The notes below the pieces were generated by a model. It was not told the DNA's origin, did not search any database, and saw nothing but the letters and a program-made list of their open reading frames with translations. The translations under genes and the position numbers were made by a program. From Polynucleobacter sp. 31A-FELB (GTDB lineage: Bacteria > Pseudomonadota > Gammaproteobacteria > Burkholderiales > Burkholderiaceae), in contig NZ_JACVOO010000001.1 in the NCBI RefSeq assembly GCF_018882405.1, positions 124,001 to 188,000 of the forward strand: a stretch of 64,000 nucleotides of DNA. Reading direction: 5' to 3'. Shown one piece after another: positions 19,177-55,831 of the stretch; within the stretch, counting starts at the first letter, position 1, and the number at the start of each line of letters is the position of its first letter.

Positions 19177-21105
19177 CTAGCTAGGCTCGGGTCCGACTTT
19201 CTGGGAAATATCCTGCTGGAGTCGGGCAACGAAGGCATCAAGAGGCATTACGCCTAAATCCACTCCGCCACGGGCACGAACGGCCACCGAATTACTTTCT
19301 GCTTCTTTATCCCCTACAACTAACAAAAATGGGAGCTTCTGTAATGCGTGCTCGCGTATTTTATACGTAATTTTCTCATTCCGCAAATCCGATTCGACTC
19401 TAAACCCTTGTTTTTTCAGAGATTGCTGGACTTTTTGTGCGTATGCAGCGGAATTATCCGAGATATTGAGGACTACAGCCTGGGTCGGAGCAAGCCAAAC
19501 CGGCATGTTTCCAGCGTGGTTTTCGATCAAAATACCGATAAAACGCTCTAAAGAGCCCACAATTGCTCTGTGAAGCATCACAGGAGCCTTGCGAGCGTTC
19601 TCTTCGGTGACATATTCGGCGCCTAAACGGGCTGGCATCGAGAAATCCACCTGAATCGTGCCGCACTGCCAAGTACGCCCAATCGAGTCCTTGAGGTGAT
19701 ATTCGATCTTAGGACCATAAAAAGCACCCTCGCCTGGCAATTCTTCCCATTCTTGTCCTGAAGCAGTCAAGGCGCCACGTAAGGCAGCCTCAGCCTTATC
19801 CCAAATCGCATCGTCACCAACACGCTTTGCCGGACGTAAAGCTAACTTGACGGCAACTTCAGTAAATCCAAAGTCTTGATAAACCTCACGAACAGCCTTA
19901 TCAAATGCAGCTACTTCTGACTGAATCTGATCTTCAGTACAGAAAATATGGCCATCATCCTGCGTGAAACCACGTACACGCATCAGGCCGTGTAATGCGC
20001 CCGATGGTTCATTGCGGTGACATTGACCGAACTCGCCATAACGTAATGGCAACTCACGATAACTATGTAAGCCTGAGTTAAAAATCTGAACGTGTCCCGG
20101 GCAGTTCATCGGCTTTAACGCATAAGCGCGATTCTCTGACTCGGTCGTAAACATGTTTTCTTTGTAGTTATCCCAGTGACCAGACTTCTCCCACAATCCA
20201 CGATCGAGAATTTGTGGAGCCTTGACCTCTTGATAACCTTCGCGCTGATAAACGCGACGCATGTATTGCTCAACTTCTTGCCAAATTGACCAGCCTTTTG
20301 GATGCCAGAAAATTAAACCGGGTGCTTCAGGCTGAAAGTGGAATAAGTCTAAGAACTTACCGAGACGACGGTGGTCTCGCTTCTCAGCCTCTTCGAGCAT
20401 ATGTAAATGCGCATCTTGATCTTCTTTTTTCAACCAAGCTGTACCGTAGATCCGTTGCAGCATCTCGTTCTTGCTATCGCCACGCCAGTAAGCGCCAGCA
20501 ACGCTCAGAAGCTTAAATACCTTAAGCTTGCCAGTGGATGGCACATGGGGTCCACGACATAAGTCAGTGAACTTACCTTCGGCATACAAGGAAACATCTT
20601 CACCTTGCGGAATACTAGAAATGATTTCTGCCTTGTAGTTTTCGCCTTGATCTTTAAAAAACTTCACCGCTTCATCACGGGGCATCACTGTGCGAATCAC
20701 TGGCTCATCTTTTTTAGCCAGCTCAGCCATTTTCTTTTCAATCGCTACCAAGTCTTCTGGTGTGAATGCGCGATGAAATGAGAAGTCGTAATAGAAACCG
20801 TTTTCGATCACAGGCCCAATAGTGACTTGCGCTTCTGGAAAGAGTTCTTTAACGGCGTAGGCCAACAAGTGCGCTGTGGAATGACGAACAATCTCGAGAG
20901 CTTCTGGGCTTTTATCGGTAATGATGGCCAAGTGACTGTCTTTGTCGATAACAAAGCTAGCATCAACCATCTTGCCATCAACAATGCCACCAAGAGCTGC
21001 TTTGGCAAGACCGCTACCAATGCTTTGGGCAACATCAAGAACACGGACGGGAGCGTCAAACTCACGTTTAGATCCATCTGGCAGAGTAACTACAAGCATG
21101 ACCAC
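19177..21105 (-). CDS. thrS: Threonyl-tRNA synthetase
   Basis: ThrRS of 642 residues. The N-terminal TGS domain ([19 protein letters not shown]) is followed by the editing domain ([16 protein letters not shown], later [19 protein letters not shown]), the class II core with MNCPGH and RVRGFTQDD, and the anticodon-binding domain. It is the first gene of thrS-infC-rpmI-rplT-pheST. A terminator and tRNA-Val lie upstream, so thrS must have its own promoter between about 21106 and 21156. Confidence 0.97.
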
Positions 21106-21212: not shown

Positions 21213-21289
21213 TGGTAGGCTCGATTGGACTCGAACCAACGACCCCCACCATGTCAAGGTGGTGCTCTAACCAGCTGAGCTACGAGCCT
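21213..21289 (-). tRNA. tRNA-Val (anticodon GAC), integration site of the island
   Basis: A complete 77-nt minus-strand tRNA with encoded CCA. The acceptor stem AGGCTCG pairs with CGAGCCT; T8-A9 are canonical; the anticodon stem CCACC/GGTGG holds loop TTGACAT, anticodon GAC. The T-arm has GGTTCGAGTCC. Its 5' half (the right side here) is duplicated at 32953-32989 next to relA, showing that an element recombined inside this gene and rebuilt it. A TAAAAT hexamer about 10 bases upstream of the tRNA could be a -10 box, but I see no good -35 box. Confidence 0.96.
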
Positions 21290-21469
21290 AATCTGTTTAT
21301 TTTACCCTATTGATCTCCACCACTTGTGCATTACTACCATCACCCTGCAAGCCATGATTTATATGGCATTGCGAGTGTATCGATGTATGGCACTTTGAGA
21401 TGTAAACACACTCATGCATATAGTAATTGCACCATTTGCAAACACCTCAAGAATATTCAAAAACTTGTC

Positions 21470-21513
21470 TGGGCCCAAATTGGGCCCATTTTGGGACAGT
21501 TTTGGGCCCAAGC
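21470..21513. repeat. Four 11-bp tandem repeats, probable integrase arm-type sites
   Basis: Four copies with an 11-bp period: TGGGCCCAAAT, TGGGCCCATTT, TGGGACAGTTT and TGGGCCCAAGC, starting at 21470, 21481, 21492 and 21503. Three contain the 8-bp palindrome TGGGCCCA. They lie between tRNA-Val and the integrase gene. Phased short repeats in this position are typical arm-type binding sites for the N-terminal domain of tyrosine integrases; binding is inferred. Confidence 0.65.
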
Positions 21514-21554
21514 TATAAATTTCTCGAGATGAACTATGAACACCACTCCACTAC

Positions 21555-21589
21555 TTTTCTCACTCTATACTATATATAGAGTGAGAAAA
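21555..21589. repeat. Perfect 15-bp inverted repeat
   Basis: TTTTCTCACTCTATA and its exact reverse complement are separated by 5 bases. It lies 13 bases beyond the stop codon of the RHH gene. There is no T-run after the stem in either direction, so it is a poor intrinsic terminator. It could be an operator or a recombination-protein site. Confidence 0.6.
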
Positions 21590-21601
21590 AAATCGTAAGA
21601 C

Positions 21602-21790
21602 TTATTTGCTCTCTGGGTTGATTTGCAAAAACTGCTCTAGTGCAATTCGAACAATATCCGAACGACTGGGAATAGAGCCCATTCCCTTGGATAGCTCAAT
21701 GCGTTTTTGGTCAATGGCCGACAAAAATGATTCATCAACTCTGACTGCCAACTGTTTGCTCTCGCCGCTTAATTTCATAAAACCACCCAT
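21602..21790 (-). CDS. Small ribbon-helix-helix (CopG-like) protein
   Basis: A 62-residue protein with the pattern of a ribbon-helix-helix DNA-binding dimer: a beta strand (SKQLAVRVDESFLSAID) followed by two helices (DQKRIELSKG, then SRSDIVRIALEQFL). Likely a repressor of island genes or a regulator of excision. It is divergent from the Xis-like/integrase pair with a 129-base AT-rich gap between. The start may be the first or fifth codon (MGGFMKL). Confidence 0.6.
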   Translation of the reverse strand: MGGFMKLSGESKQLAVRVDESFLSAIDQKRIELSKGMGSIPSRSDIVRIALEQFLQINPESK

Positions 21791-21919
21791 TTGAATTATT
21801 TGTTGTTTTTATATTGTCTCATTTGTCATACATATTGACAAATTCAATGTTTTCATATACAATATAGTTGTATTACAGTAATAAAGTAATTTAAATAACG
21901 TTAACTTCGGGAAATAAAT

Positions 21920-22144
21920 ATGACTACATACATGAAAGCAGCAGAATTGGCAGCCCATATTCCATATAAGGCTCGCTACATTAATGAATACCTAAAAGAT
22001 CGTGTATTCATAGAAGGGACCCACTACGTGCGGCTACCTGGATCCAGACGCATTATGTACATCTGGGAAACCATTCAAACGGATTACCTCAAACAAACAG
22101 CCTTAGAAATTCCAATGGCTAATGGAGGTGTGTGCCATGGGTAG
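21920..22144 (+). CDS. Excisionase-like small DNA-binding protein
   Basis: A 74-residue basic protein with an N-terminal helical part (MKAAELAAHIPYKARYINEYL) and a wing-like segment (GTHYVRLPGSRRIMY), resembling Xis/AlpA-type winged-helix proteins that are often encoded before an integrase. It overlaps the integrase start by 8 bases, which suggests translational coupling. Expected role: control of integration or excision. No close named relative is recognised. Confidence 0.55.
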   Translation: MTTYMKAAELAAHIPYKARYINEYLKDRVFIEGTHYVRLPGSRRIMYIWETIQTDYLKQTALEIPMANGGVCHG

Positions 22145-23387
22145 TATTCGCACACGAGCAGAGTCCAATGCCCTCTTTTTTGATTTTCGCTATCGCGGCA
22201 TCCGCTGCAAAGAACTTACCAAGCTCAAGCCCACTAAGGCAAATATCTTTAGATTGGAAGCAATCATGAAGACTATTCAAAAGGAGATAGACGAAGAAAC
22301 CTTCTCCTATCGCAAATACTTTCCCAATAGCAAACGTGCGGATTTATTTGAAAGCGCAGCTCCATGCACTACATCCACTACCAATGAAGAGTTATTGGCT
22401 GGCGCACAAGTCGCTGCTCTCGAGATGCGCAATACAGGCGCAAAACAAGCAATCATCAATATTGATGGCATGCCTAGCTTCTCCGAATTTTCCGATCTTT
22501 GGTTTACTGAACGTCAAATTAGTTGGAAGCGCTCCACTCAGGGGAAAGTAAAAGACATTCTAGTCAAGCACCTTGTACCCCGCTTTCGCGGAAGACGCGT
22601 CCACGAAATTTCCAAAGCCGACATCCTGTCTTATCGCGGACTTCTTGCAAAGCCCAATGAAGATGGAAAGGTCTTGTCAGCCACTCGGATCAATGGGATT
22701 CTGAACATCTTGAAACAAATTCTGACTGAAGCAGCTGATCGCCACGAATTTGAAATAGGTTTTCGCGGCATTAAACCCTTGCGGATCCCCAAGATAAAGA
22801 TTGAGCCCTTCTCCCTACTAGAGGTTGGACAAATCCTGGAGGCAGCCCCCAAGGAATATAAACCCTATCTCACCACGGCTTTTTTTACTGGTATGCGCAC
22901 CTCTGAATTACTTGGCCTTACTTGGGCCAGTGTTGATTTAAAAAACGCTAGCCTAACTGTTGAACAAGCTTGGGTAGGCGGTGAAATTGATTCGACCAAA
23001 ACCGCTGGATCCGAGCGAACCATTGATTTATCTACTCCGGTTATTCAAGCCTTACTCGAGCAACGCAAAATTACAGAATCCATTAAATCTGAATACGTCT
23101 TTTGCTCAAGCAATGGCACCCCCTTTAGTCGCCACAACTTTGCTAATCGCATCTGGCACCCCCTGCTAACGCAATTAAACATTAAGCGACGACGACCCTA
23201 TCAAACTCGTCATACAGCAGCAACGCTTTGGCTAGCTTCAGGTGAAAACCCAGAGTGGATTGCGCGGCAAATGGGTCACACGTCGACTCGCATGCTTTTT
23301 ACTACCTATTCAAGGTATGTACCTAACCTTACCCGCAAAGACGGCTCAGCTTTTGAGCAACTACTGAACTCTCAACTTCCAGGATAA
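22137..23387 (+). CDS. Tyrosine-type site-specific integrase
   Basis: Island integrase. The N-terminus (about residues 1-65) matches the Arm-DNA-binding DUF3596 type seen in tRNA-targeting integrases; a core-binding domain follows (about 105-195), then the catalytic domain. Catalytic residues: Arg in TGMRTSELLGL; YQTRHT in place of HxxRH (the first His is Tyr, a known variant); His in MGHTSTRM; and nucleophile Tyr in TTYSRYV. I start it at the ATG at 22137 because GGAGGTG lies 7 bases upstream; an in-frame ATG at 22122 is upstream of that site. It probably acts on the tRNA-Val att sites. Confidence 0.93.
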   Translation: MGSIRTRAESNALFFDFRYRGIRCKELTKLKPTKANIFRLEAIMKTIQKEIDEETFSYRKYFPNSKRADLFESAAPCTTSTTNEELLAGAQVAALEMRNTGAKQAIINIDGMPSFSEFSDLWFTERQISWKRSTQGKVKDILVKHLVPRFRGRRVHEISKADILSYRGLLAKPNEDGKVLSATRINGILNILKQILTEAADRHEFEIGFRGIKPLRIPKIKIEPFSLLEVGQILEAAPKEYKPYLTTAFFTGMRTSELLGLTWASVDLKNASLTVEQAWVGGEIDSTKTAGSERTIDLSTPVIQALLEQRKITESIKSEYVFCSSNGTPFSRHNFANRIWHPLLTQLNIKRRRPYQTRHTAATLWLASGENPEWIARQMGHTSTRMLFTTYSRYVPNLTRKDGSAFEQLLNSQLPG

Positions 23388-23389
23388 AA

Positions 23390-23947
23390 ATGAATACCCC
23401 ATATTACCTAATGACACAACAGGACAAAGAATATCTACTTCGTGGCGAGGAATTTCTTCGCAATCTTCTCAAAACAAGATTGATCGACTTTTCTATTAAT
23501 GAAATCAAAGCGGCAGGTTATACATGCCCTGACTATCGCTCGCTTTATTTGCTTGGAAGAGATTTACCCCCAGTTCCAGCCATCTACTTTCTCTTTAATC
23601 AAGCCGGCGGAATCTACTACATTGGCCAAAGCGTGAATGTCTTTAAACGTATCTGCTCAGGACATACAAAAACGATGGGCCGCAACTGGACCAAGCTTTC
23701 CATTCTGGGACTAAAACCAGGTGCAACTCAAGAACAATTGAACTATGCCGAAGCGATGTTTATTTTTATTCATCAACATAAACGTTCTCGTAATAAACAT
23801 GGCAAGACTTTGGTTGACATGAGTTTTAAAGAGGTAATACATCGTTTTGATGCTCAATTTGAAGAAACCATCTTTCCAATTGCACTTTTAGATATAGCTC
23901 AATTTATTGAATATTGGCAAAGAAATGAGGCTTTATTCCAAAAATAA
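23390..23947 (+). CDS. GIY-YIG nuclease-domain protein
   Basis: A 185-residue protein beginning 2 bases after the integrase stop, so it is in the same operon. The central part has the GIY-YIG fold signature: IYFLFNQ...GIYYIGQS (about residues 64-83), then NVFKRICSGH with the conserved Arg and His, and a Glu in the NYAEAMFI helix. Such nucleases occur in mobile elements as homing or anti-competitor enzymes; a role here is unknown. The N-terminal 60 residues are unassigned. Confidence 0.7.
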   Translation: MNTPYYLMTQQDKEYLLRGEEFLRNLLKTRLIDFSINEIKAAGYTCPDYRSLYLLGRDLPPVPAIYFLFNQAGGIYYIGQSVNVFKRICSGHTKTMGRNWTKLSILGLKPGATQEQLNYAEAMFIFIHQHKRSRNKHGKTLVDMSFKEVIHRFDAQFEETIFPIALLDIAQFIEYWQRNEALFQK

Positions 23948-24287
23948 GATCGGAGAGCTATGGGGGCGGACTACCAAATACTCATAATATTTGAACAATA
24001 AAGGCTATTTGCGAACAGAATAAGCGGCTTAAAAGAGAATGCTTGAATGTTGGCTGCACCCGGACCTACCTCAACCACCCAAACTTCACCCCCCCCCATC
24101 ACCTACAGTCGTAATCCGTTGCCCTCGGTTCGAGCAAAGATCGAGGGGCCAAGAATTAGAAAAAAAATCAATAGCCTGCAAAGATGCAGGCTATTTTTAC
24201 CCAAAATAAACTTGGAGCACTCAAAGAAATGAGTGAAACGCGAGGCTTACAAATCTTAAAATCTATTTCGAGGCTGCTATAGGCTAA
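23948..24287. other. Non-coding gap between the nuclease and hipA genes
   Basis: No credible gene is seen in these 340 bases. The stretch contains a C-run of eight near 24090, a hairpin CCTCG...CGAGG near 24125-24148, and a strong terminator at 24163-24198. Short frames here have no recognisable features. Confidence 0.6.
24163..24198. terminator. Bidirectional Rho-independent terminator
   Basis: A perfect 9-bp stem ATAGCCTGC/GCAGGCTAT with a 6-base loop is preceded by an A-run and followed by a T-run. It separates the plus-strand integrase operon from the convergent minus-strand hipBA genes. Confidence 0.88.
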
Positions 24288-25568
24288 TTACAGCAACTTT
24301 AAATTAGACCAAACTTCGTTCGTTAATTTGTCGTTTACCCCAACTTCCTTAGCAAACAACCTCCAGGAGCTAACAGCTCTTTTCACATCATCTAATATCA
24401 ATTCTGGTTTTTTAATATCAAATTGTTTTGCTAGTGCCAGTAAGTCCGCTCTCGTATGTCCATCGAACTTGCCATTAATGCCGCATAAATGTTGATAAGT
24501 CCATTCGCCTTTTGGGTTATATGCATACATCACATCATAAGCAGGTGCTAATTTCCAAACGCCATCTGGACCCATTAAGAAGCCAAAGTTCTTAGTATGG
24601 TCATCACAATTGCGAGCCATGATATTAAAAGCGACACGTCTAAATGCCTGGGATAAAGCGTCATGCCCTAAGCTGAGCGCATTGATTGCTCTTAAGTACT
24701 GCTGATAGTCATGCACGCCTTTTAGTCTGAAATCCATTTCCATCAATCCACATAACGATTGATAAAAGATCTTTTGATTGCCCTCTCGATCGAAGCGCTT
24801 GGTCATAAAATGTGAGCGGCCATTTTCTTCAAACAGTTTGGACTCAGCCATATCTATACCAGCTGCTTTTGCCATCAAGTAGTAGGCATACTCTACCTTG
24901 CCGTAGCCTTCTGATAAACCAAGCTCAGTATCCTCACCCACACCATCAAACTTTAAAAGCCAGTGCTCTGAGCCCGGTGGCGCATCAAACTGACCACCAA
25001 ATACTTCATTAGTTTTGGGATTCCAAGCAATTACCGCTTTTGCTCTTGCGCCACCAGCAGAAGTGCCAACTGACAGTAAGTCTTGCAAAGATTCCTCGGG
25101 AGTATCTTCCAAATTACCCGTTAGCGCCCTTCTTGCCATCTCGACAAGATTGGACATTTCTAAAGCAGCTTTATTTTTAACAATATCTTTAGTGGCTGGC
25201 ACAAACTCAAATGCGCCCATTGCTCTTTTGCCTGTATAGGCCAATCGATCCAACACAGTCACATCTCTTGGCAAAATACCTTTTGAGGCCATGTATTGAT
25301 TAACCAAGGCGTTACCAAAATCATCTGGCAACGAGTCGACTAAAAATGCTGGCAAGCCTCGATAGGTTCGCTCTGGTAGATCGTTAAATCGTTGTATTTG
25401 AGAAGGATTCTGACGTAAGTCATCGATAGGTAAATTAATCGGTGCAATATCTAAATTCAACTTCAGAAACTGTGGGTCAAACTGTGTATTCAGTTGACCG
25501 CTAGCATCTACAGCGATAGCGCAGACTCTTTGTCCCCAAAGGTTGACTGAGATTGCGGGAACACTCAT
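24288..25568 (-). CDS. hipA: HipA-family toxin kinase
   Basis: Toxin of a type II toxin-antitoxin pair, 426 residues. HipA kinases phosphorylate glutamyl-tRNA synthetase or similar targets and induce dormancy. Visible features: the couple_hipA N-terminal domain with FLVDSLPDDFGNALV; the Ser-containing loop SVGTSAGGARAK (autophosphorylation/ATP region); the catalytic NIMARNCDDHTKNFGFL; and the metal-binding LAPAYDVMY. Full length with intact catalytic residues, so probably active. It overlaps hipB by 4 bases (ATGA). Confidence 0.92.
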   Translation of the reverse strand: MSVPAISVNLWGQRVCAIAVDASGQLNTQFDPQFLKLNLDIAPINLPIDDLRQNPSQIQRFNDLPERTYRGLPAFLVDSLPDDFGNALVNQYMASKGILPRDVTVLDRLAYTGKRAMGAFEFVPATKDIVKNKAALEMSNLVEMARRALTGNLEDTPEESLQDLLSVGTSAGGARAKAVIAWNPKTNEVFGGQFDAPPGSEHWLLKFDGVGEDTELGLSEGYGKVEYAYYLMAKAAGIDMAESKLFEENGRSHFMTKRFDREGNQKIFYQSLCGLMEMDFRLKGVHDYQQYLRAINALSLGHDALSQAFRRVAFNIMARNCDDHTKNFGFLMGPDGVWKLAPAYDVMYAYNPKGEWTYQHLCGINGKFDGHTRADLLALAKQFDIKKPELILDDVKRAVSSWRLFAKEVGVNDKLTNEVWSNLKLL

Positions 25569-25903
25569 TGCTTATCCTTTGTTGTAGCTGCCTTCTTACC
25601 AAACCGTCTTGCATTCTTGCGCTCATGCCCAAGATCAACTGCATCTAGCGGCGATACCTGCGACACCGGAATTAGTTGAAGCACTTGATCCAAGCCGCCC
25701 AATACTCGCAGTAATCCTAGCAAAGTTGATAAACGAATATCTTCGCCTGCCTCCGCTTTAGCGATGGAACCTGCAGCAACACCTGCCTTTTCCGCCAACT
25801 CTGCTCTTGGCATATTGCGCTGTAAACGTAGGCGACGTAAACGCTGTCCAAGCTCTACTTGAAGCTCAGAATTGGTCTTAAACTTGGCTTTTATATTATA
25901 CAT
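25565..25903 (-). CDS. hipB: HipB-like XRE-family antitoxin
   Basis: A 112-residue protein with a Cro/C1-type HTH (about residues 15-72: ELGQRLRRLRLQRNMPRAELAEKA, GVAAGSIAKAE). It lies directly upstream of hipA with overlapping stop and start, the classic antitoxin-first order. The C-terminal tail is basic and probably disordered. It should neutralise HipA and repress the operon; the AT-rich gap at 25904-26064 should hold its promoter. Confidence 0.88.
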   Translation of the reverse strand: MYNIKAKFKTNSELQVELGQRLRRLRLQRNMPRAELAEKAGVAAGSIAKAEAGEDIRLSTLLGLLRVLGGLDQVLQLIPVSQVSPLDAVDLGHERKNARRFGKKAATTKDKQ

Positions 25904-26064
25904 AATAGTAGTAAATATATCATATTATTAGCTTTATTTACTATTTTAATAGAAAATATAGCTATGTAATATTAAGCCAGTTCAAGAAGTACCACCCCCG
26001 CCTTAAGCTTGCCAAAGTCATATTCACGGATACCCCTCCTTTAAAACTTGGGAAAAAGCCTAAT

Positions 26065-29000
26065 CTAGAAAGGTGCACGAACCAAAGCCAGAAGAGATAA
26101 TGCCGCCCTGACCCCAAACATCGCGGCAATCCCCTCATGTTGCGGAACACCCTTCTTCTTGGATATTTGAGTTAAATCGAGATCTACCCGAATCTTCCCC
26201 CTTGTGCTACCTGAATCTTTTGGCTCCAACTCTCTGGCCTGACTTATCTCAAGCTGGTCTTCCCAATATTGCCGCTGGCGCTTAGCGGATGGAAAATCCT
26301 TGCCAACGGATGGGGAATGGGCGATCACTATTGCCTCCTCGATTTTTAACTCACGCAAAAACCAGATCCAGCGCTTAGCTTTTGGCAACGAGTCGGTCTC
26401 AATGGAAAGATGGGTTCCCGCAATCCAAAGCTCAAGAAAGTCACTCAACAATTCTTGAACGCGCTTTTGACAGGCTAACTTCTTGCCAAGCCATGGCATT
26501 TCACCTTGATAGACCTTTTTCAGCAATTCACAAGTTGACATAGCAATGCTGAATTGTTCAGGCTTACCAACTAAATCGGCAACTAGCCTATTGGCTTTGG
26601 GTTTTGTTAGTAACACCCCTTTTGAACGCAATACCCCCTGAGGAAGACTTGGTAGCATCTGGATCCATAAATACAAATCCTCCAACCGATAGCCATAGCG
26701 ATCTGACGCCAACTTCAACGGGTACAACTCAGAATCTTCATTCTCAGGCAATGGTGCTGTTTTTGCATATTCAATGAAATTCAGAACCTCTAAAACCTGC
26801 AAAGTTTTTGCCGTTATTTCCTTTGGTGGAATTACCGCTGATGACTTGTTAAATTTTACTGTCGACTTCTTTTTAACTGGGGCGATATTTTTGCCATCCA
26901 ACAACAATCGATCGCAGAGGGAATCCAAATAAACGCCCTGCCTAATCTGAGGAGGCGTAGCAACCGATAGTTTTCTCTCGATTTCGTATAGATATGAAGT
27001 CGAGTAACCACTTAGAGGCTCTAAAGTAGCAATATCCAATTGGGGCGTGAGTCTATAGGCCATGCGCCCTAAAATAAAATCCGCCAGGTGGATGTATGAG
27101 CCCATCGTGATATCAAGCCCTGCGTGACCCATCAAGCTACTGATCTGAAGCATCGATCTCGTATTGGTTGGCGCCGATCCTAGCAATGATTGGCGCACGG
27201 ATGCAGAAATCATTAATCTTCTGGAATCATGCTCTGTTGGCAAGAACCATTGCGGCAAAAAAACGCCTTTACCCTGCTCGCCTAACCAGAACATCACCGC
27301 AAGCCAGTTGGCAAAACTATGTCTTAGATGATGAAACCGTAGCCCTTCATCATCATTTAAATGCTTAAGCGCTTTAGTGAGGCGCTCTAAATTGGGGTCT
27401 CTGTCATTGGCCTTGCCATTTTTAACAAATAGATTAAACAAGGGCTCAGCCCCCGTACTCGCCTTGAGCGGATCATGGGTATCGGGATTCTGTGCTTTAT
27501 CGCTTGCCCTGATTTGATTGCGGCGAAGCACCCATAAATTACGCACTGCAATTAATGCATGTGCAGGCATTAAAGCAAAAGCCGGCAAAAGTCGATTAGC
27601 AGAGCGTGACTTAAGTTCACGCAATCCATTTTTACAAATTTCAATCCAAAATTCAGGCGGGGTCTCCTGTGTAATGGAGACACCTTCAATAAAGTCGATA
27701 TCTTGGATTTGCAAACCCAAGACTTCCGATCGTCGCAAGCCACAGAAAAAACCCAAACTCAGAACAACCTGAAGTTGCTGGACTAGAGCGCTCGCTGCTT
27801 CATTCTTCCCTACCAAACCCCCATAGAGTTTTGTAATTTCTTGCTCAAGGTGATTAGAAATTTGAAGACAAGAATCCAAACTGATCAGATTGGCATCGAC
27901 AGCAGCATTACCACGGCCACTTACTCGAAAAATATCATGGTCGCTTAATGGCACTACACCATGTTTAGATTCCAAATACTGATGTAGTGACTTAAGAGCG
28001 CGGCCCACGATACGGCGAACACCATTTGAGGGCGTATCTTCTAGGGCAACCTGATAGACTTCGAGATAGGCTTCCTCATCACCTAACTTCGTTAAATCCA
28101 GTCGCCCCAGCTGCCCCACTAAGCGCCCGGCAATGCAGTTCACCATTTGATAAGTAGTGCGCGGTCTTTTAACCCTTCGTCCGCGACCCTTGGCTAAAAG
28201 ATACTCCGCTGCCCATAACCCCAGAATGCGTACACTTGGTAGTAGCTCACTATCATTGGCAGCCAACCAGGCCTTTACCCTTTTTTGAGGCTCATCTAGT
28301 TTCGAATTTAATACGCCACCCAATTCTCGCAACTGCACTGGAAGTGCATCATCTTTTTCCATCGGGATATTGCTTTGTTCATGCTCACCCTCTTCGCCTT
28401 CTTCTTGGCTCTCATCGCTTGAATCGCCCACCAAAGAAACGGGGCCTGCCAAGGCGGGCATCTCTCTGCTGGTGAGGCTACTGAAATACTTGGCAGGAGG
28501 ATGAATCAATCGGTCCCAAACATGCTCGGGTAGCGAGGTACTCACAAGGCGATCGCTTGCATATTGAACTAGCCAAGGAGGCATATGCAAATGAAGCCGT
28601 GCCCTTACTCCATCCAAAAGGGCTTTGATTCCACCCGGCAATTTATCTGAAAACTCATGATGTTTTGCGTAAGCGCTAATCAAGCCATAAACATTTTGTC
28701 CATCAGAAACCCGTTTGAGCTCTGGCATCACTAGTTTTTGCTGATCGCTAGAGCTAACTAAGATTAAACGGGTTACTGGGTCAATAAACCAGCGCCGTAA
28801 TACAGGATGTTTGGGAGGGTTTTTTCCTTTAACGGGGTACAAAGAAACCCAGCGTAGCCGCGGATCATGTTTTCCTTCCACAAGAGATTTAAGGAGCTCC
28901 ATCAGAAAAACACTATCCACCAATGCGCCATTTAGCATGGCCGAGAGCAGTACTTGACCCCACCAAGCCTGCGAACCTACGGTACATCGAGTCTCCTTTA

Positions 29001-29454
29001 AGGATCGATTGAAAGCCTCAAGCAAAGGGGTAATCTTTGCTCGCTTTTGCATATTGTCATGAGTAAAGGGAGATGGCGGCATGGGTGGCAGCGGCGCTGG
29101 CACATAGGGAATAGGAATATCAAAACGACCCAGAGCATTGCCTGCCTCAATTACCTCTAAAAATCGACGTCGTACTTTAAAACCAGAGTCAGCTTTTGCG
29201 GAGTGCTTCACCTCCAAAAGAATTGCTCTGATAGCGGACTTGTCCAACTTGAGAGTCCCAGGTTTGCACTTGAGAATTTGCGGATTTTTTTGCTGGACCT
29301 GATACAAGATTTTTAACGTGTCCGCGCTTAAGTCACTTAAATCTATCGATTGCTCGGCATGAGTTATATCCGATAATTTGGGATACGACCCCTCCAAATG
29401 TGACCAGCCCACCCAAATATCGGGATCTAAATCAGAGATCTGGACTCGTGCCAT
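26065..29454 (-). CDS. Very large tyrosine recombinase, third gene of the trio
   Basis: A 1129-residue protein. Residues about 1-380 have no recognisable domain and include a Pro-rich stretch (about 125-140) and an acidic linker (DESQEEGEEGEHEQ). A core-binding-like helical region follows (about 395-500), then a tyrosine-recombinase catalytic core: Arg in FFCGLRRSEVLGLQ (about 573), HHLRHSFANWL (about 710), LMGHAGLDITMGSYIHL with His and Tyr (about 780-790). All catalytic residues are present. A further 330 residues of unknown function follow, far beyond any normal integrase. It starts 2 bases after the 935-aa gene, so both are in one operon. The architecture resembles trio-type recombinase modules (Tn554-like, RIT, or gamma-mobile-trio elements), but membership is not established. 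Confidence 0.8.
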   Translation of the reverse strand: MARVQISDLDPDIWVGWSHLEGSYPKLSDITHAEQSIDLSDLSADTLKILYQVQQKNPQILKCKPGTLKLDKSAIRAILLEVKHSAKADSGFKVRRRFLEVIEAGNALGRFDIPIPYVPAPLPPMPPSPFTHDNMQKRAKITPLLEAFNRSLKETRCTVGSQAWWGQVLLSAMLNGALVDSVFLMELLKSLVEGKHDPRLRWVSLYPVKGKNPPKHPVLRRWFIDPVTRLILVSSSDQQKLVMPELKRVSDGQNVYGLISAYAKHHEFSDKLPGGIKALLDGVRARLHLHMPPWLVQYASDRLVSTSLPEHVWDRLIHPPAKYFSSLTSREMPALAGPVSLVGDSSDESQEEGEEGEHEQSNIPMEKDDALPVQLRELGGVLNSKLDEPQKRVKAWLAANDSELLPSVRILGLWAAEYLLAKGRGRRVKRPRTTYQMVNCIAGRLVGQLGRLDLTKLGDEEAYLEVYQVALEDTPSNGVRRIVGRALKSLHQYLESKHGVVPLSDHDIFRVSGRGNAAVDANLISLDSCLQISNHLEQEITKLYGGLVGKNEAASALVQQLQVVLSLGFFCGLRRSEVLGLQIQDIDFIEGVSITQETPPEFWIEICKNGLRELKSRSANRLLPAFALMPAHALIAVRNLWVLRRNQIRASDKAQNPDTHDPLKASTGAEPLFNLFVKNGKANDRDPNLERLTKALKHLNDDEGLRFHHLRHSFANWLAVMFWLGEQGKGVFLPQWFLPTEHDSRRLMISASVRQSLLGSAPTNTRSMLQISSLMGHAGLDITMGSYIHLADFILGRMAYRLTPQLDIATLEPLSGYSTSYLYEIERKLSVATPPQIRQGVYLDSLCDRLLLDGKNIAPVKKKSTVKFNKSSAVIPPKEITAKTLQVLEVLNFIEYAKTAPLPENEDSELYPLKLASDRYGYRLEDLYLWIQMLPSLPQGVLRSKGVLLTKPKANRLVADLVGKPEQFSIAMSTCELLKKVYQGEMPWLGKKLACQKRVQELLSDFLELWIAGTHLSIETDSLPKAKRWIWFLRELKIEEAIVIAHSPSVGKDFPSAKRQRQYWEDQLEISQARELEPKDSGSTRGKIRVDLDLTQISKKKGVPQHEGIAAMFGVRAALSLLALVRAPF

Positions 29455-29456
29455 GA

Positions 29457-32264
29457 TTAAAAATCGATCACCTGAAAATCAATACCCTCTTTGCCCAATA
29501 ATTTTTCAAATGGACTTTTGAGTGCCTCTCGCAGATAGTAGGGATCCATCGCCGAATCAGGCCCCCAAGGAGATTCCCCGAGTTGCCAGTGGCCCATCAC
29601 CGTTTTAATCACCGTTGCAAAACTTTTCTGCTTCTCATTAAACAAAGTGGTTGCTAAAAAATGGCGCCCATTATTGGGGATCGGCCAAGAACCTAACTTT
29701 AAGGAATCTAATAGCGCTTGCAATCTTCTGCCCGAGAATTCCTTGGGTTGCCATATGCCGCCCACTTCTTCAAAAAGAAAGAGCGAGCTTTGCAATGACA
29801 GCGCAAATGACTTGGTGCCGTAGATGCGGATGTCGCGATTTTTCGTCGCAGGGACTTTGAGCTCTGGACTGGTTTGAAAGGAAAGGGTTACCCATAATCT
29901 TTTGAGGTGATTCAAATAGGCGCTTACACAAGCACGTACATCGTCAGGAATCCATACAAGGCGCGCATGCGAACCGTTGTCCCGATCTTTCTCCTCCATA
30001 TGCAAGAAGCCCGTTTCCTGATCAATCAGACCTAAATCCAAAATAGGAGTATTGGCATTACGAAAGGCCGTAACAATACTTAGAGCAATGCCGGTATAGG
30101 CCACTACCAGGTTGTGATAGTGATGCGGCTCTTGTTGATCATGATCGGCAATTTGAGCGCGCAGCATTTCTAAGAGCGTTTTAATACCCTCTACTTTTGG
30201 AGCCCAATCATTGCCCGTGAGACTATTTGGAATCTGCGCAGTATTCTTCGATAAAGAAAAGAGAGGCTTTACTAGTGAGCCATCTTTTAGTAATTTTTTA
30301 TCATCAGGCGTAGCAACTTGAATTTGCTTCCAGAGATTACGCATGATCTTGCAGTAGTAATCATCCAAAACCGCTCTATCAAGGGCGGCGTAATGAGACT
30401 GGACCTCAGACTGGGGGCTACTTCTGCCAAAAAGAGCACAGTTTCTGAGCAACTCCCCCTCTTCCAGACCTTCGAACCAGCTTGGCAAAAGCTCCCCAAT
30501 GCTATCGACCCCGACCCAATCCTCATCAACCCCCGCCTCAATTAAGGCGGGTGCTATCTGCGTAATAAAAACTTTTTTATAGACCGCCTCAGTTTGGGTG
30601 AACCATTTCTTGTTACGAGTCTTGGGAAGTAATTGACCCACAGACCATATGTCCCAAAAGGCAATTCGGGGAGATACCGCAACAGAGTCGCTAAAAATGA
30701 TGCGGGCATTCTTATTTCTATCGGGTACTGGATATGGTCGAAGCCAAACACGATACTGATCTGAATAAGCAATCCTCCATTCAGATGGCAACTCTTCAAT
30801 AGAGGTGAAACAATGCAATGAGGTCGCTTCTTTAAGGCTATGGCCAGTAAATAAAGCTACTGCGCAAAGTTTGACGGTCTCATTAAGCAGGGCTTTGGCT
30901 TGGTCACCAGCATCCATCAAGCTTTGACTGTAAAGATTTTGCAAGACGCCTATGACCCTGACAAAGAGCGGGACTCTGGCACGATCCAATCGGTTACGAA
31001 AAGATTGTGCCCTCATGATTTCCATTCGATACCTAGCTCTAGCTGCAGCGTAAAGGGTATTTAATGGAGGCAGCTCTCGTGGGCCGCCATCGGTGGAGGC
31101 TGGGTCTAAAAAATCGTCAGGCTCAAAAAAGATTTCTTCTGCCTCAAGATACTCACCGGGATGAGCGCCCTCCTCAAATAGAGTCGCTACTGTATCCACT
31201 TCTGGACCAATCCATTCGATATGGGGCCGAGTATTACTCTTACGCTTTGATGCGATGGCGGGAAAACCTTGGGCAATCCAAAATAAATGGTGATCCTCAT
31301 AAATCCTTGAATCCGTCAATTTTTTTTGGGGAATCTTTTTTCTATCACCAGGAAGAGAAAAGGTATCAACTAATTTTTTTGCAAATTCACTGGGATGCCT
31401 CAATACATACCCAAAATTGACCACATCGGCAAACCCAGCAAACTCCTGACGGAATAATTCCTCAGGATTGGCGTGAATATCCGAGAACACCTGATGCATC
31501 GCATTGGGCTTGTTATAGGCAAAACAATGCGTGCTTAGGCGCTCTAGTAAAAAACCATGCTCAATAGAATGAATTTTGCGCAATAAGCGTCCGGAGTCCC
31601 GCAAGCGAGCATAGAGGTCGCTACCGTAAAAATACTTTGACTGCGCTTCCTCCTGGGAGCGGCGCAGCCTCATATAGGAGCTTAGATACAAGCCTTGCAA
31701 GCCTCGATAAACCTGATCACGCACCGTATAAATAGCCTCAGTGGGAGGTGTAGCTGATCGGTACCAAAGAGTCATCCACACGGGATGCTCCTCCTCAATC
31801 CCCCAAAATGGCGGGCCAATCGATTTCAAAACCCGCTTCTTATTCGACGCCTCACCATCCCCAGCTTCTGGACCCCATCTTCTTTCAACCTTACTTAAAA
31901 GGTATATCTTTTGGAGCTCAGGGGATTGGCGCTCTGCTTGAACAATCTCGATCCACCGCCCTAAATGATGAAAAATCTCATCTAGATCATGGGTGTAAAT
32001 TGGCCCTTGGCCCAAACTCCACTGTTTTGCGCAAGCCAGAATTTCGGGCAAGTTATCTAGGTTTAGCCAAAGACCAGCCAAAGATTTAGGGATATCGAGA
32101 TACCATTCGGCCACCTGGTGCAAAGCCTCAAAACCATCATATTTTGAGAAGGCAGACAGAAATGGTGTTCGATTGTCCTCATCCCTTGCAGGGGATTTAC
32201 GGGGGCCCTTCCCCTCGAGAATCTGGGGTAACTCTTCGTTATCCACCAGCCCTCGACTCCCCAA
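29457..32264 (-). CDS. Large recombinase-like protein, second gene of the trio
   Basis: A 935-residue protein with no domain recognised in the first 700 residues. The last 220 look like a divergent tyrosine-recombinase core: an Arg in SIVTAFRNANTP (about 735), a basic turn (EKDRDNGSHAR), NNGRHFLATTLF in the place of HxxRH (first His replaced by Asn, about 868), VMGHWQLGE (about 888) and MDPYYL as possible nucleophile Tyr (about 906). It may be active or a structural partner. It overlaps the 182-aa gene by 26 bases and is followed after 2 bases by the 1129-aa gene. Confidence 0.6.
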   Translation of the reverse strand: MGSRGLVDNEELPQILEGKGPRKSPARDEDNRTPFLSAFSKYDGFEALHQVAEWYLDIPKSLAGLWLNLDNLPEILACAKQWSLGQGPIYTHDLDEIFHHLGRWIEIVQAERQSPELQKIYLLSKVERRWGPEAGDGEASNKKRVLKSIGPPFWGIEEEHPVWMTLWYRSATPPTEAIYTVRDQVYRGLQGLYLSSYMRLRRSQEEAQSKYFYGSDLYARLRDSGRLLRKIHSIEHGFLLERLSTHCFAYNKPNAMHQVFSDIHANPEELFRQEFAGFADVVNFGYVLRHPSEFAKKLVDTFSLPGDRKKIPQKKLTDSRIYEDHHLFWIAQGFPAIASKRKSNTRPHIEWIGPEVDTVATLFEEGAHPGEYLEAEEIFFEPDDFLDPASTDGGPRELPPLNTLYAAARARYRMEIMRAQSFRNRLDRARVPLFVRVIGVLQNLYSQSLMDAGDQAKALLNETVKLCAVALFTGHSLKEATSLHCFTSIEELPSEWRIAYSDQYRVWLRPYPVPDRNKNARIIFSDSVAVSPRIAFWDIWSVGQLLPKTRNKKWFTQTEAVYKKVFITQIAPALIEAGVDEDWVGVDSIGELLPSWFEGLEEGELLRNCALFGRSSPQSEVQSHYAALDRAVLDDYYCKIMRNLWKQIQVATPDDKKLLKDGSLVKPLFSLSKNTAQIPNSLTGNDWAPKVEGIKTLLEMLRAQIADHDQQEPHHYHNLVVAYTGIALSIVTAFRNANTPILDLGLIDQETGFLHMEEKDRDNGSHARLVWIPDDVRACVSAYLNHLKRLWVTLSFQTSPELKVPATKNRDIRIYGTKSFALSLQSSLFLFEEVGGIWQPKEFSGRRLQALLDSLKLGSWPIPNNGRHFLATTLFNEKQKSFATVIKTVMGHWQLGESPWGPDSAMDPYYLREALKSPFEKLLGKEGIDFQVIDF

Positions 32265-32787
32265 TATTTAATGCCTTAGCCGAACCGAGCACCTCTTCTA
32301 TTTTTTTATCGGGATCTTGAAAGGCTAAATCTATTAACTTTGACCAATTTTTAGGCAGGTTAAGGGGTGGGCCCATTTTGGCCAATTCATCCTTTGGGAA
32401 GGATCTAACTCTCTCTCGCAACTCTTTAGGTCTGTTTCCAGAGAAAAACAATGGGATTAATAGATCTTGAGTCAATTCAACCAATTTTGAGGTTTTGGCA
32501 TCGTCAACAAGCCAAACTGGGATCTTCGTCTTCAGACCCAAAATTGCTTTTGCTAGGAGAAGTTGGGGTTTTCCACAAATTACCTTATATTTTGCCCCTC
32601 CCCCGTTAGCTAGGAATTCGGCCGAGGACTCCTCAAACAAGACAATGGGGTGCATAACAAGCAAGGTCTCAAGGGCTTCAGAATTTAGGGATTGAACTAA
32701 CTGCTGTAGAAACGGTTGATTCTCAGAAAAATCTGATTCAAGCTCGATTTGCTGGATGGTAAGAGAAATTTGCTTGATTTTCGTCAT
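32239..32787 (-). CDS. ParB-like small protein, first gene of the trio
   Basis: A 182-residue protein. Residues about 45-95 match the pattern of a ParB/sulfiredoxin-like fold: HPIVLF, then KYKVICGKPQLLLAKAIL and a closing strand IPVWLVDD, comparable to the ParB pattern of Pro-Ile-Val, a Tyr-x-Ile-x-Gly strand and Leu-x-Ala-Ala-Lys helix. The usual ParB GERRxRA box is replaced by GKPQLLLA, so CTPase or nuclease activity is not predicted. The C-terminal half is unassigned. It heads the operon and overlaps the next gene by 26 bases. The fold call is by eye only. Confidence 0.55.
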   Translation of the reverse strand: MTKIKQISLTIQQIELESDFSENQPFLQQLVQSLNSEALETLLVMHPIVLFEESSAEFLANGGGAKYKVICGKPQLLLAKAILGLKTKIPVWLVDDAKTSKLVELTQDLLIPLFFSGNRPKELRERVRSFPKDELAKMGPPLNLPKNWSKLIDLAFQDPDKKIEEVLGSAKALNIGESRAGG

Positions 32788-32952
32788 GAGACCAATTTGG
32801 GTGGTGTTCCCTTTTTAGCACACTATTTACCGAAAATCCACTATGGTCTTTGACTATTATTTTTATGTTTTTGTCAGTTTTAAAATGTCTTAATATGTAT
32901 AAAACCTTATTTTAAAGCATTTAAACGCTGTTTTTTAAATATGAGCTCGACT

Positions 32953-32989
32953 ATGTCAAGGTGGTGCAACCAGCTGAGCTACGAGCCTA
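32953..32989 (-). repeat. Attachment-site copy: 5' half of tRNA-Val
   Basis: Read on the minus strand, this matches the 5' half of tRNA-Val from the first base through the anticodon loop, with three bases (AGA of the D-arm) missing. It lies 17 bases downstream of the relA stop. It lacks the 3' half, so it is not a functional tRNA. With 21251-21290 it forms the direct repeat that flanks the island. The identity stops at the anticodon loop, which marks the probable crossover. Confidence 0.88.
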
Positions 32990-50736: not shown

Positions 50737-50766
50737 TTTTGGTCAAATTTTGGTCAACGAGGTCAA
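50737..50766. repeat. Short phased repeats in front of the integrase
   Basis: TTTTGGTCAAA and TTTTGGTCAAC follow each other with an 11-bp period, and a third GGTCAA follows 9 bases later. They run up to the integrase start and include its ribosome-binding site. Like the repeats at 21470-21513 they are probable integrase arm-type sites, which would also let the integrase repress its own gene. Confidence 0.55.
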
Positions 50767-50768
50767 TT

Positions 50769-51806
50769 GTGGCATCCATACAGAAACGTGGCGACACCTT
50801 TAGAGTGCGCATCATACGCAAGGGTTACTCCACCCTATCGCAAACCTTTAAAACCCGTCTTGAAGCCATTAAGTGGGCAAGAAAGATCGAGACAGACATC
50901 GATCAAGGGGTTATAAAACCCAACAAGACGCTGACCAACCGCATGCTAGATCAGGATTTAACCTTTGGCGAAGCGGCAGCGCACTACATCAAGAATCACT
51001 CTATTCATAAGCGCAACTGCAAAACAGAGAGCGGCACGATTAGAACGCTGATTGGGCACTGGGGCAGTGAAAACATCCAAAGTATCGATAAAACCAAAGT
51101 CTTTGCCCTACGAGATGACCTACTTTCCAGGGGGCGGTCTGGCGACACCGTAAACCACTACTACAACGCCATCTCCAAGATTTATCAAATGCTACAAACG
51201 GAATGGTCAATCGCTGTTGATAACCCGATAAAGGGGGTTAAGAGGCTACCAGCAAACCCGAGCAGAACAAAACGCATCAATGGGGCAGCAGAAACTGCCC
51301 TACTTTCTGCATGCGAACAATCCAAATCAAAACTACTAAAGCCTATTGTGGAATTTGCCCTAGAAACTGGGATGCGCAGAGGTGAGCTTATGGGCTTAAG
51401 GTGGTTGGATATCGACCTACCAAGCCGAAGGGCCTTTTTACACATTACGAAAAACGGTGACCCTAGACAAGTGCCTCTTACCCTAAAGGCAGTTCAAATA
51501 CTAAATGGGGTAATGCATGAGGACCCCGAATATGTTTTTCCATTGAAGCTGGATGCGCTGCGTAGATATTTTGAAAAAGCTGTCAAAACCGCAAAAGCTA
51601 ACTGGGCATTAAATGGGGTTAATCCGTTTGAAGACTGCCGCTACCATGATCTGCGTCACGAAGCGCTGAGCCGCCTCTCGGATGCTGGATTGAATGTTAT
51701 CGAACTTAGCCATATCAGCGGACATAAGACACTTAGTCAGTTGGCACGCTACACACACCCGAGCCATCAGGCAATTTTTGCCAAGCTAGACAAGATAAAC
51801 ACATAG
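50769..51806 (+). CDS. Tyrosine-type site-specific integrase
   Basis: A phage-type integrase of about 345 residues. The N-terminal arm-binding part (ASIQKRGDTFRVRIIRKGYS) is followed by a SAM-like core-binding domain and the catalytic domain: Arg in TGMRRGELMGLRW, DLRHEALSRL (first His replaced by Asp within YHDLRHE, where His precedes Asp), HISGHKTLSQLARYTH with His and nucleophile Tyr. I start at the GTG at 50769 since GAGG lies 6 bases upstream; a TTG at 50739 opens the frame. It probably catalysed insertion into tRNA-Arg. Confidence 0.93.
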   Translation: MASIQKRGDTFRVRIIRKGYSTLSQTFKTRLEAIKWARKIETDIDQGVIKPNKTLTNRMLDQDLTFGEAAAHYIKNHSIHKRNCKTESGTIRTLIGHWGSENIQSIDKTKVFALRDDLLSRGRSGDTVNHYYNAISKIYQMLQTEWSIAVDNPIKGVKRLPANPSRTKRINGAAETALLSACEQSKSKLLKPIVEFALETGMRRGELMGLRWLDIDLPSRRAFLHITKNGDPRQVPLTLKAVQILNGVMHEDPEYVFPLKLDALRRYFEKAVKTAKANWALNGVNPFEDCRYHDLRHEALSRLSDAGLNVIELSHISGHKTLSQLARYTHPSHQAIFAKLDKINT

Positions 51807-55426: not shown

Positions 55427-55831
55427 ATGAATACTCGCCTCATTTACTGCACCCTTATTCTCCTAGCTTTCTTTGCTAGACCATCACTTGCAAATTGCAT
55501 TGGATATTCTGGTCCTGGGGGCCCCTGCTACTCTGGGCCAGGAGGCGGTTTATATACCGGACCAGGGGGTGGCGCTTATACCGGACCAGGGGGTGGCGCT
55601 TATACCGGACCAGGAGGCGGTTTATATACCGGGCCGGGTGGAGGAGCTTATACAGGGCCGGGGGGTGGCCTATACACTGGGCCAGGGGGTGGCGCTTATA
55701 CCGGGCCGGGTGGAGGAGCTTATACAGGGCCTGGCGGCGGTGCATATACGGGACCAGGGGGTGGATGCTATACCGGCCCTGGGGGTGGCGGCACCGATCA
55801 ATGGAATAGACCCAATCCAAACTGCAAATAA
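55427..55831 (+). CDS. Secreted Tyr/Gly/Pro 8-residue repeat protein
   Basis: A 134-residue protein. A signal peptide (MNTRLIYCTLILLAFFARPS, cleaved near ALA) precedes exactly twelve tandem copies of an 8-residue unit, xYTGPGGG (x = Ala, Leu, Cys or Gly), spanning residues 26-121. The 13-residue tail ends in Cys; Cys also occurs at the first and last repeats (about residues 24, 34, 114), which could link chains. It is not a collagen (no Gly-x-y triplets) and resembles spider-silk-like or cell-wall Gly-rich proteins. Probably an extracellular or periplasmic structural protein. It precedes two surface-adhesin-like genes. Confidence 0.8.
   Translation: MNTRLIYCTLILLAFFARPSLANCIGYSGPGGPCYSGPGGGLYTGPGGGAYTGPGGGAYTGPGGGLYTGPGGGAYTGPGGGLYTGPGGGAYTGPGGGAYTGPGGGAYTGPGGGCYTGPGGGGTDQWNRPNPNCK
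55502..55789 (+). repeat. Twelve 24-bp in-frame tandem repeats
   Basis: The repeat array encodes the 8-residue units of the protein above. Copies differ mainly at synonymous third positions (for example GGACCAGGG against GGGCCGGGT), so selection has kept the protein sequence rather than the DNA. Such arrays may change copy number by slippage. Confidence 0.9.

Follow-up and report, generated by a model that had tools for sequence, protein, structure and literature searches.

The window analysed here, a 64,000-nucleotide (nt) stretch of the Polynucleobacter sp. 31A-FELB contig NZ_JACVOO010000001.1 (positions 124,001 to 188,000), carries three adjacent minus-strand genes encoding a small protein, P3, and two large ones, P2 and P1. 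Together, P3-P2-P1 (the trio) constitute a conserved three-protein set, a probable recombination module, that is a backbone part of a family of integrative islands. The trio looks like an undescribed DNA-recombination module, and no description of it was found in a literature search limited to open-licence PubMed Central (PMC) papers. An earlier sequence-only reading had described three overlapping minus-strand genes for proteins of 182, 935 and 1129 amino acids (aa). The genes, strand and coordinates stand, as does the overlap of P3 with P2, which measures 26 nt; P2 and P1, however, do not overlap, having a 2-nt gap between them.

26065 to 29454, minus strand: P1, predicted large tyrosine recombinase, 1129 aa, ATG start, Pfam Phage_integrase match
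29457 to 32264, minus strand: P2, 935 aa, TTG start, predicted recombinase fold at the C-terminus
32239 to 32787, minus strand: P3, small protein of a possibly ParB-N-like family (family profile), 182 aa, ATG start

The same three genes occur together in many Pseudomonadota and in a few other phyla, which removes the doubt raised in the sequence-only reading that they might not be found together elsewhere. Bacterial and archaeal genome contigs were scanned, and of the 115 loci confirmed 80 were kept; L059, L104, L095, L113, L096 and L126 were dropped as duplicates or near-identical copies before loci were counted. The kept loci are mostly from Pseudomonadota, among them Halomonas/Vreelandella, Marinobacter, Pseudomonas, Stutzerimonas, Acidithiobacillus, Thioalkalivibrio and Rheinheimera, with a few from Acidobacteria, Desulfuromonadales and one Nitrospirae bin. 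P2 lies immediately before P1 on the same strand in 77 of the 84 loci with at least 2.5 kb upstream of P1, and in one further locus the two are naturally fused into a single open reading frame (ORF) of 1862 aa (L033, 7288-12876); P2 was not found before P1 in the other six (L026, L035, L099, L103, L117 and L128). The pairing of P2 with P1 is thus far above chance. An ORF of 100-330 aa abuts P2 in 60 of the 73 loci in which this could be tested, and it matches the P3 profile in 41 of the 73. Among 398 sampled Pseudomonadota genomes, P1 is present in 23 (profile E≤1e-20). The closest named relatives of the window P1 are from Polynucleobacter genomes (83-90% identical). An inverted repeat is common to three Halomonas-group loci (L028, L071 and L082). 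A phage origin of the trio was considered and rejected: P1 and one relative had no match in 50,697 phage records, and viral contigs contributed five loci, one of them a good match (L127, E 9e-26) and four weaker.

P1 comprises an N-terminal region of ~400 aa, a core-binding domain (~406-500), a catalytic domain (~517-804) and a C-terminal region of ~320 aa. Pfam Phage_integrase matches residues 562-719 (E 2.1e-7), and NCBIfam gives weak Xer- and integron-type matches and nothing else. The sequence-only reading had noted a complete catalytic set far from the C-terminus, and this is borne out: R574, K615, H708, R711, H777 and Y787 are identical in all 84 sequences compared (900-1260 aa), and this set of six stops 342 residues short of the end. 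Many of the 84 were retrieved with a peptide pattern at about residues 706-715, which fixes H708, L710, R711, H712 and S713 and with which the 80 named loci were found, so that conservation there is by construction. The six residues are also invariant in 19 of 19 sequences chosen without any motif; this set and the plasmid copies described below are free of selection by the pattern. An AlphaFold2 model built from 68 sequences has a mean predicted local distance difference test (pLDDT) score of 82.6 and aligns with 3nkh_A in VIA-align (Z 14.2, root-mean-square deviation (rmsd) 3.7, 199 residues aligned). The fold statement comes from VIA-align, there being no Foldseek match at E≤0.001. The N-terminal ~400 and C-terminal ~320 residues matched no named fold, in a search that barely tested them, as one domain accounted for the matches listed. 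Taken together, conservation and model indicate that P1 is a complete tyrosine recombinase, with a predicted R-K-H-R-H-Y active site within an integrase fold.

The P2 of the window has no Pfam or NCBIfam match, and among its relatives Phage_integrase was found in 5 of 17 members scanned, the fused L033 protein included. In a set of 79 sequences of 680-990 aa, the conserved residues are R735 (76/79), K759 (79/79), N864 (73/79), R867 (77/79), H892 (79/79) and S904 (73/79). N864 occupies the position of the usual histidine and S904 lies near the expected place of the tyrosine; past residue 625, no tyrosine reaches 80% conservation. Y625 itself, which precedes the catalytic domain, is present in all 79 sequences. 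The model of P2, from 17 sequences, has a mean pLDDT of 57, and residues 1-420, at pLDDT below 50, were not interpreted. Residues ~685-929 align with the recombinase catalytic fold in VIA-align (4a8e, Z 15.5, rmsd 2.7, 172 aligned), on which the fold assignment depends, as the best Foldseek match has E 5.6e-3 and none reaches E≤0.001. A degenerate core at the C-terminus had been noted in the sequence-only reading, which made a dedicated trio system depend on this end adopting the recombinase fold; the fold is found, and with it a conserved pocket without the tyrosine. The model also aligns with recombinase-fold phage regulators, namely SroF (Z 10.0 and 9.1), MrpR (8.4) and YopR (8.1). Selection appears to maintain the P2 pocket despite the absence of the usual nucleophile. 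Homology between P1 and P2 outside the recombinase core is weak, the best pair having E 0.0049 over P2 565-875. A strong profile match between the two was set aside as an artefact of the fused L033 row in alignment A1.

The P3 of the window, taken alone, has no Pfam, NCBIfam or recombinase match. The profile of its family matches ParB (7o0n, E 5.5e-4) and Noc (7ol9, E 1.5e-3) in the PDB, and with 10 rows the match to 7o0n is weaker (E 0.0039). Among 10 relatives, Pfam ParB_N is found in two (best E 0.0085) and an NCBIfam Noc match in two (best E 8.9e-4). The term ParB-like, applied to the small protein in the sequence-only reading, can therefore be kept as a weak to moderate suggestion about the family, but the window protein itself shows no such match.

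The trio forms one end of an island inserted in a tRNA gene, the other features of which are as follows.

19177 to 21105, minus strand: thrS, chromosomal flank (Pfam tRNA-synt_2b 2.8e-53, HGTP_anticodon 3.8e-21)
21213 to 21289, minus strand: intact tRNA-Val(GAC), the rebuilt island end on the integrase side (ARAGORN)
22122 to 23387, plus strand: Int, tyrosine integrase of 421 aa at the tRNA end of the island (Arm-DNA-bind_2 3.8e-21, Phage_integrase 4.5e-20)
23390 to 23947, plus strand: GIY-YIG-like gene, 185 aa, directly behind Int (Pfam GIY-YIG 2.4e-4)
24288 to 25568, minus strand: HipA-like protein, cargo (HipA_C 3e-48)
25565 to 25903, minus strand: HipB-like helix-turn-helix protein, cargo (HTH_3 1.1e-8)
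32950 to 32989, minus strand: 5' remnant of tRNA-Val, the trio-side island end, between relA and P3
33007 to 35043, minus strand: relA/spoT, chromosomal flank (RelA_SpoT 5.7e-44)

An intact tRNA gene stands at one end and a displaced fragment at the other, bases 21248-21290 matching the remnant at 91%, and the P3 start lies 163 nt from the remnant. In the relative G592, relA, tRNA-Val and thrS are contiguous, and the relA-side match (C1:611693-612646) and the thrS-side match (C1:610745-611735) meet inside the tRNA, which makes this an empty site. The intact tRNA, the remnant and the empty site place the window island at about 21250 to 32970 (~11.7 kb), and it contains Int, the GIY-YIG-like gene, the HipBA pair and the trio. 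The HipBA pair (24288-25903) is the cargo that can be recognised in this small island, and HipA is also encoded downstream of the trio in the plasmid stretch L185. The GIY-YIG score of the 185-aa gene is 21.8 bits, under the cut-off of 22.6. Outside the island, the window holds a second ordinary tyrosine-integrase-like ORF of 355 aa (50739-51806, judged by eye from its translation) and a short ORF (55427-55831) with a repeated glycine-rich motif, YTGPGGG, seen in translation.

The order thrS, intact tRNA-Val, Int, GIY-YIG-like gene, cargo, P1, P2, P3, remnant, relA is common to the window island and those at L047 (66 kb) and L052 (30 kb), the cargo being different; no P3 was called at L052, and P2 lies 275 nt from the remnant in one island without a called P3. 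L048 and L050 have both end types as in the window, spread across contigs. Int is 78-94% identical in L047, L052, L048 and L050 (two of the matches being partial), and the window Int is 43-52% identical to 12 integrases from other trio loci. A homologue of the GIY-YIG-like gene adjoins Int in the tRNA-Val islands L170, L176, L178 and L048, and none was recognised in the tRNA-Arg-type islands. The 30 kb tRNA-Val island carries a giant cargo ORF of more than 3,000 residues (L206, from ~8963).

Polynucleobacter has a further element type in tRNA-Arg(CCG), in which Int is of the same family and the trio more distantly related (L198-L203, L208-L211). In G657, G618, G603 and G694, Int lies 0.7-0.8 kb from the intact tRNA-Arg(CCG) and the trio lies towards the tRNA-Arg remnant. 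The P3 start is 201 nt from the remnant in G603 and 207 nt in G694; in G618 and G657, ~2.3 kb with two other ORFs separate the remnant from P2 and no P3 was recognised. Both tRNA pieces are on one contig in seven Polynucleobacter islands of 11.7-66 kb, three in tRNA-Val and four in tRNA-Arg (G000, G620, G623, G657, G618, G603 and G694), and in all seven Int is found beside the intact tRNA, with the trio towards the remnant. Remnants of tRNA-Val span tRNA positions 1-42, and those of tRNA-Arg span positions 29-76 (two islands), 48-76 and 53-76. Since the ranges 1-42 and 29-76 overlap at the anticodon stem-loop, the remnants suggest that crossover takes place there.

Trio and Int are strongly associated across genomes. 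Of the 398 Pseudomonadota genomes, 16 carried both P1 (23 genomes) and the Int family (19 genomes), against 1.1 expected (Fisher 1.6e-20, indicative only, as the genomes are not phylogenetically independent, which holds for all the co-occurrence p-values); three genomes had Int only and seven P1 only. The Int family is here represented by 28 places above 375 bits, with 18 weaker places (E 1e-50 to 1e-73) left out; when these are included, giving 34 genomes in all, the overlap with P1 is 18 by a count made by eye. In 15 of the 16 genomes with both, at least one Int and at least one P1 are on the same contig, 0.6 to 70 kb apart. Similarly, among 186 Polynucleobacter genomes P1 is found in 14, Int in 13 and both in 11, with Int only in two and P1 only in three (Fisher 1.6e-13); in one of the 11 (G695), Int and P1 are more than 300 kb apart. 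In addition, tree distances over 39 loci, uncorrected for host phylogeny, are correlated between P1 and P2 (0.95), P2 and Int (0.76) and P1 and Int (0.68), with none of 2000 permutations reaching each value. Conservation is much higher in Int, at a median pairwise identity of 56%, than in P1, at 19%. An Int-family ORF of at least 150 aa is present in 45 of 95 loci within the fetched stretch, many stretches stopping before the far island end. The sequence-only reading had placed the trio apart from the tRNA integrase; the integrase is indeed a distinct gene, but the two share the same islands, one towards each end, and are found together much more often than chance would allow.

Trio and Int are also found apart. 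Relatives of an Acinetobacter P1 are present on 247 plasmid records, all from Acinetobacter, 213 of which cover at least 80% of the query, and the Int family is present in 2 of 72,556 plasmid records (E≤1e-60). Five Acinetobacter stretches were opened (L181, L183-L186). Four have three genes of trio size and order, annotated as two hypothetical proteins and an integrase, and in the fifth the middle gene is absent from the annotation listing. P1 and P2 from three of the stretches match the family profiles, with the conserved residues of both kept in all three, and the Int family has no match in any of the five. A different partner is found at L037 (9849-11372) and L038 (5607-7130), where 0.78 kb separates a short-type trio from a 507-aa ORF whose end overlaps a tRNA-Glu. 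The L037 ORF matches the large serine recombinases (Resolvase 5.6e-23) and the L038 copy is its homologue in the same place, from which it appears that the trio can adjoin an integrase of other chemistry. Conversely, Int is present in G380 with no trio in the ~60 kb to each side of it, and in G602 and G604 with no P1.

In the mechanism proposed here, Int alone would pick the site at the anticodon stem-loop of the tRNA, and target choice is probably not made by the trio. P1 and P2 may form a heteromer in which only P1 would cut, and P3 may put this complex onto the element DNA. The complex would work on the circular form of the element, in multimer resolution or the finishing of a circular intermediate, and not on a chromosomal target. 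Action of the trio on the circular form is held tentatively, at somewhat less than an even chance. As the partner may be a tyrosine integrase, a serine integrase or none, a role for the trio in some step shared by circular elements is more likely than one in choosing the tRNA target. Action on the circular form would account for the varied company of the trio: a tyrosine integrase in most of the mapped islands, a serine integrase in a single lineage, and no member of the Int family in the plasmids examined.

Several points weigh against this proposal. The strong pairing of trio and Int could mean that both act in the same reaction. Host XerCD handles dimers of chromosomal islands, and the need for a resolver of their own is not obvious. 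The case of the serine integrase comes from a single lineage of two genomes in one genus, both of which carry Int and another P1 elsewhere. On the plasmids, the check for Int covered just the five Acinetobacter stretches, the P3 profile has no match to the small proteins, and the third gene is equated with P3 by position only. A single-sequence plasmid search with the window P2 returned no records, and that with the window P1 three, relatives being needed as queries. No recombination site for P1 and P2 was found: in four close islands, the 230 nt ahead of P3 contain no inverted repeat that is conserved. Finally, no excision, transfer or circular form was observed.

The pairing could also be accounted for if Int, P1, P2 and P3 jointly excised and integrated the island, as do IntA-IntB-Tfp-Srap in the strand-biased circularizing integrative elements (SE) or GinA-D in GInt elements, for both of which the same division of labour is described. 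Int and the trio co-occur, their trees correlate and, in the circular form, they would flank the joined ends. However, the 247 plasmid records have P1 relatives but almost never the Int family, a serine integrase replaces Int beside the trio at L037 and L038, and Int exists without a trio within ~60 kb in G380 and without P1 in the Int-only genomes G602 and G604. Moreover, Int already possesses arm, core and catalytic domains, and joint action is considered rather unlikely. The spread of the trio over islands of many taxa and plasmids would also be compatible with an independent transposon, in which P1, P2 and P3 mobilise the DNA that encodes them and have entered islands and plasmids by insertion, as known trio elements are thought to do (PMC3414803). 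Such a transposon is not the first choice, because the trio keeps to one side of the mapped tRNA islands and is accompanied by a single integrase family. In four of the seven mapped islands, all with the trio towards the same end, P3 starts 163-207 nt from the remnant; in a fifth, P2 lies 275 nt from it, and in the other two the distance is ~2.3 kb. Tree distances indicate co-inheritance with Int, and no separate ends were seen in the ~230 nt examined before P3. This explanation is improbable.

The recombinase-fold proteins might, alternatively, bind DNA without recombining it, in the manner of phage repressors, or attack incoming DNA. Alignment of P2 with SroF, MrpR and YopR would fit a regulator, but the P1 active site is intact in all 84 sequences, and P1-P3 and three L028 proteins have no PADLOC match at E≤1. 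A regulator or defence module is accordingly given the least chance of the explanations considered, and a defence system was set aside for want of a PADLOC match to the trio. A more specific possibility for the heteromer, decidedly unlikely as it stands, is a half-active synapse between P1 and P2. The R-K-N-R-H pocket of P2 would grip the scissile phosphate and either be unable to cut or take the tyrosine of P1 in trans, as in Flp; one strand would be exchanged and replication would finish the junction. If true, the trio would carry out recombination with an inherent strand bias, serving islands and plasmids whatever their integrase, and would offer a molecular basis for strand-biased copy-out as proposed for SE elements.

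In the records opened, the plasmid trio is annotated just as hypothetical proteins and a site-specific or tyrosine-type integrase. Knowledge of its function would show by what means a large class of elements, islands and plasmids alike, is maintained or mobilised. The trio is, in addition, a natural test case for why several mobile elements pair one live large recombinase with a tyrosine-less one.

The sequence-only reading had compared the trio with Gamma-Mobile-Trio (GMT), Tn554 and RIT elements. GMT is likewise a trio, by name, and resides on mobile islands with defensive and offensive cargo. The resemblance is not carried further by profiles: NCBIfam NF040693 recomb_GmtY (441 positions) has no match at E≤1 to P1-P3 or to the 17, 19 and 10 members of alignments A1, A2 and A3, and in the trio's own genome it has matches at other places only, below the cut-off. 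Identity with GMT is rejected as far as the NCBIfam GmtY model goes. NF040692 recomb_assoc, which we take to be a GMT member, has no match in the trio's own genome, and it has none in any control genome either. As for RIT and Tn554, adjacent tyrosine-recombinase genes and one long protein are shared with the trio. RIT has three proteins, each with a possible catalytic motif (PMC3414803), unlike P2, without a conserved catalytic tyrosine, and P3, without a recombinase match. Tn554 has two catalytic recombinases and TnpC, whereas the trio has one catalytic member, one without the tyrosine and one that may be ParB-like. The absence of an obvious match to either, remarked on in the sequence-only reading, agrees with this difference in make-up, but the trio-type likeness it drew to them is not supported. 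IntBPP-1-type integrases (DUF3596, now Arm-DNA-bind_2) have an arm domain in common with Int and not with the trio (PMC8138268).

GInt and SE elements are compared with the trio by their descriptions. GInt elements have ginABCD as one operon at one end, a GinD with a helix-loop-helix, and sites in or at protein genes; GinC is incomplete, without the first arginine (PMC5385486). Several tyrosine recombinases, one of them incomplete, a small protein and a cargo island are thus features of both. The missing residue differs, being the tyrosine in P2 and the first arginine in GinC, and the trio has three genes, the small one first and possibly ParB-like, a separate arm-domain integrase at the opposite end and tRNA sites. 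SE elements have the operon intA-tfp-intB with srap, imperfect inverted repeats with a 6-nt spacer and named sites that are not tRNA genes, and they are described from Gammaproteobacteria only (PMC10214605). Inverted repeats of this type, with a 6-nt spacer, were not conserved among the four close islands over the ~230 nt examined ahead of P3. Like SE, the trio-bearing islands combine an ordinary recombinase, a large catalytic one, a fold-only one without catalytic residues and a small helper with variable cargo. Unlike SE, they have the order P3-P2-P1 with Int apart, mapped sites in tRNA genes and a wider host range. On these descriptions, the trio resembles SE and GInt in its parts and differs from both in its layout.

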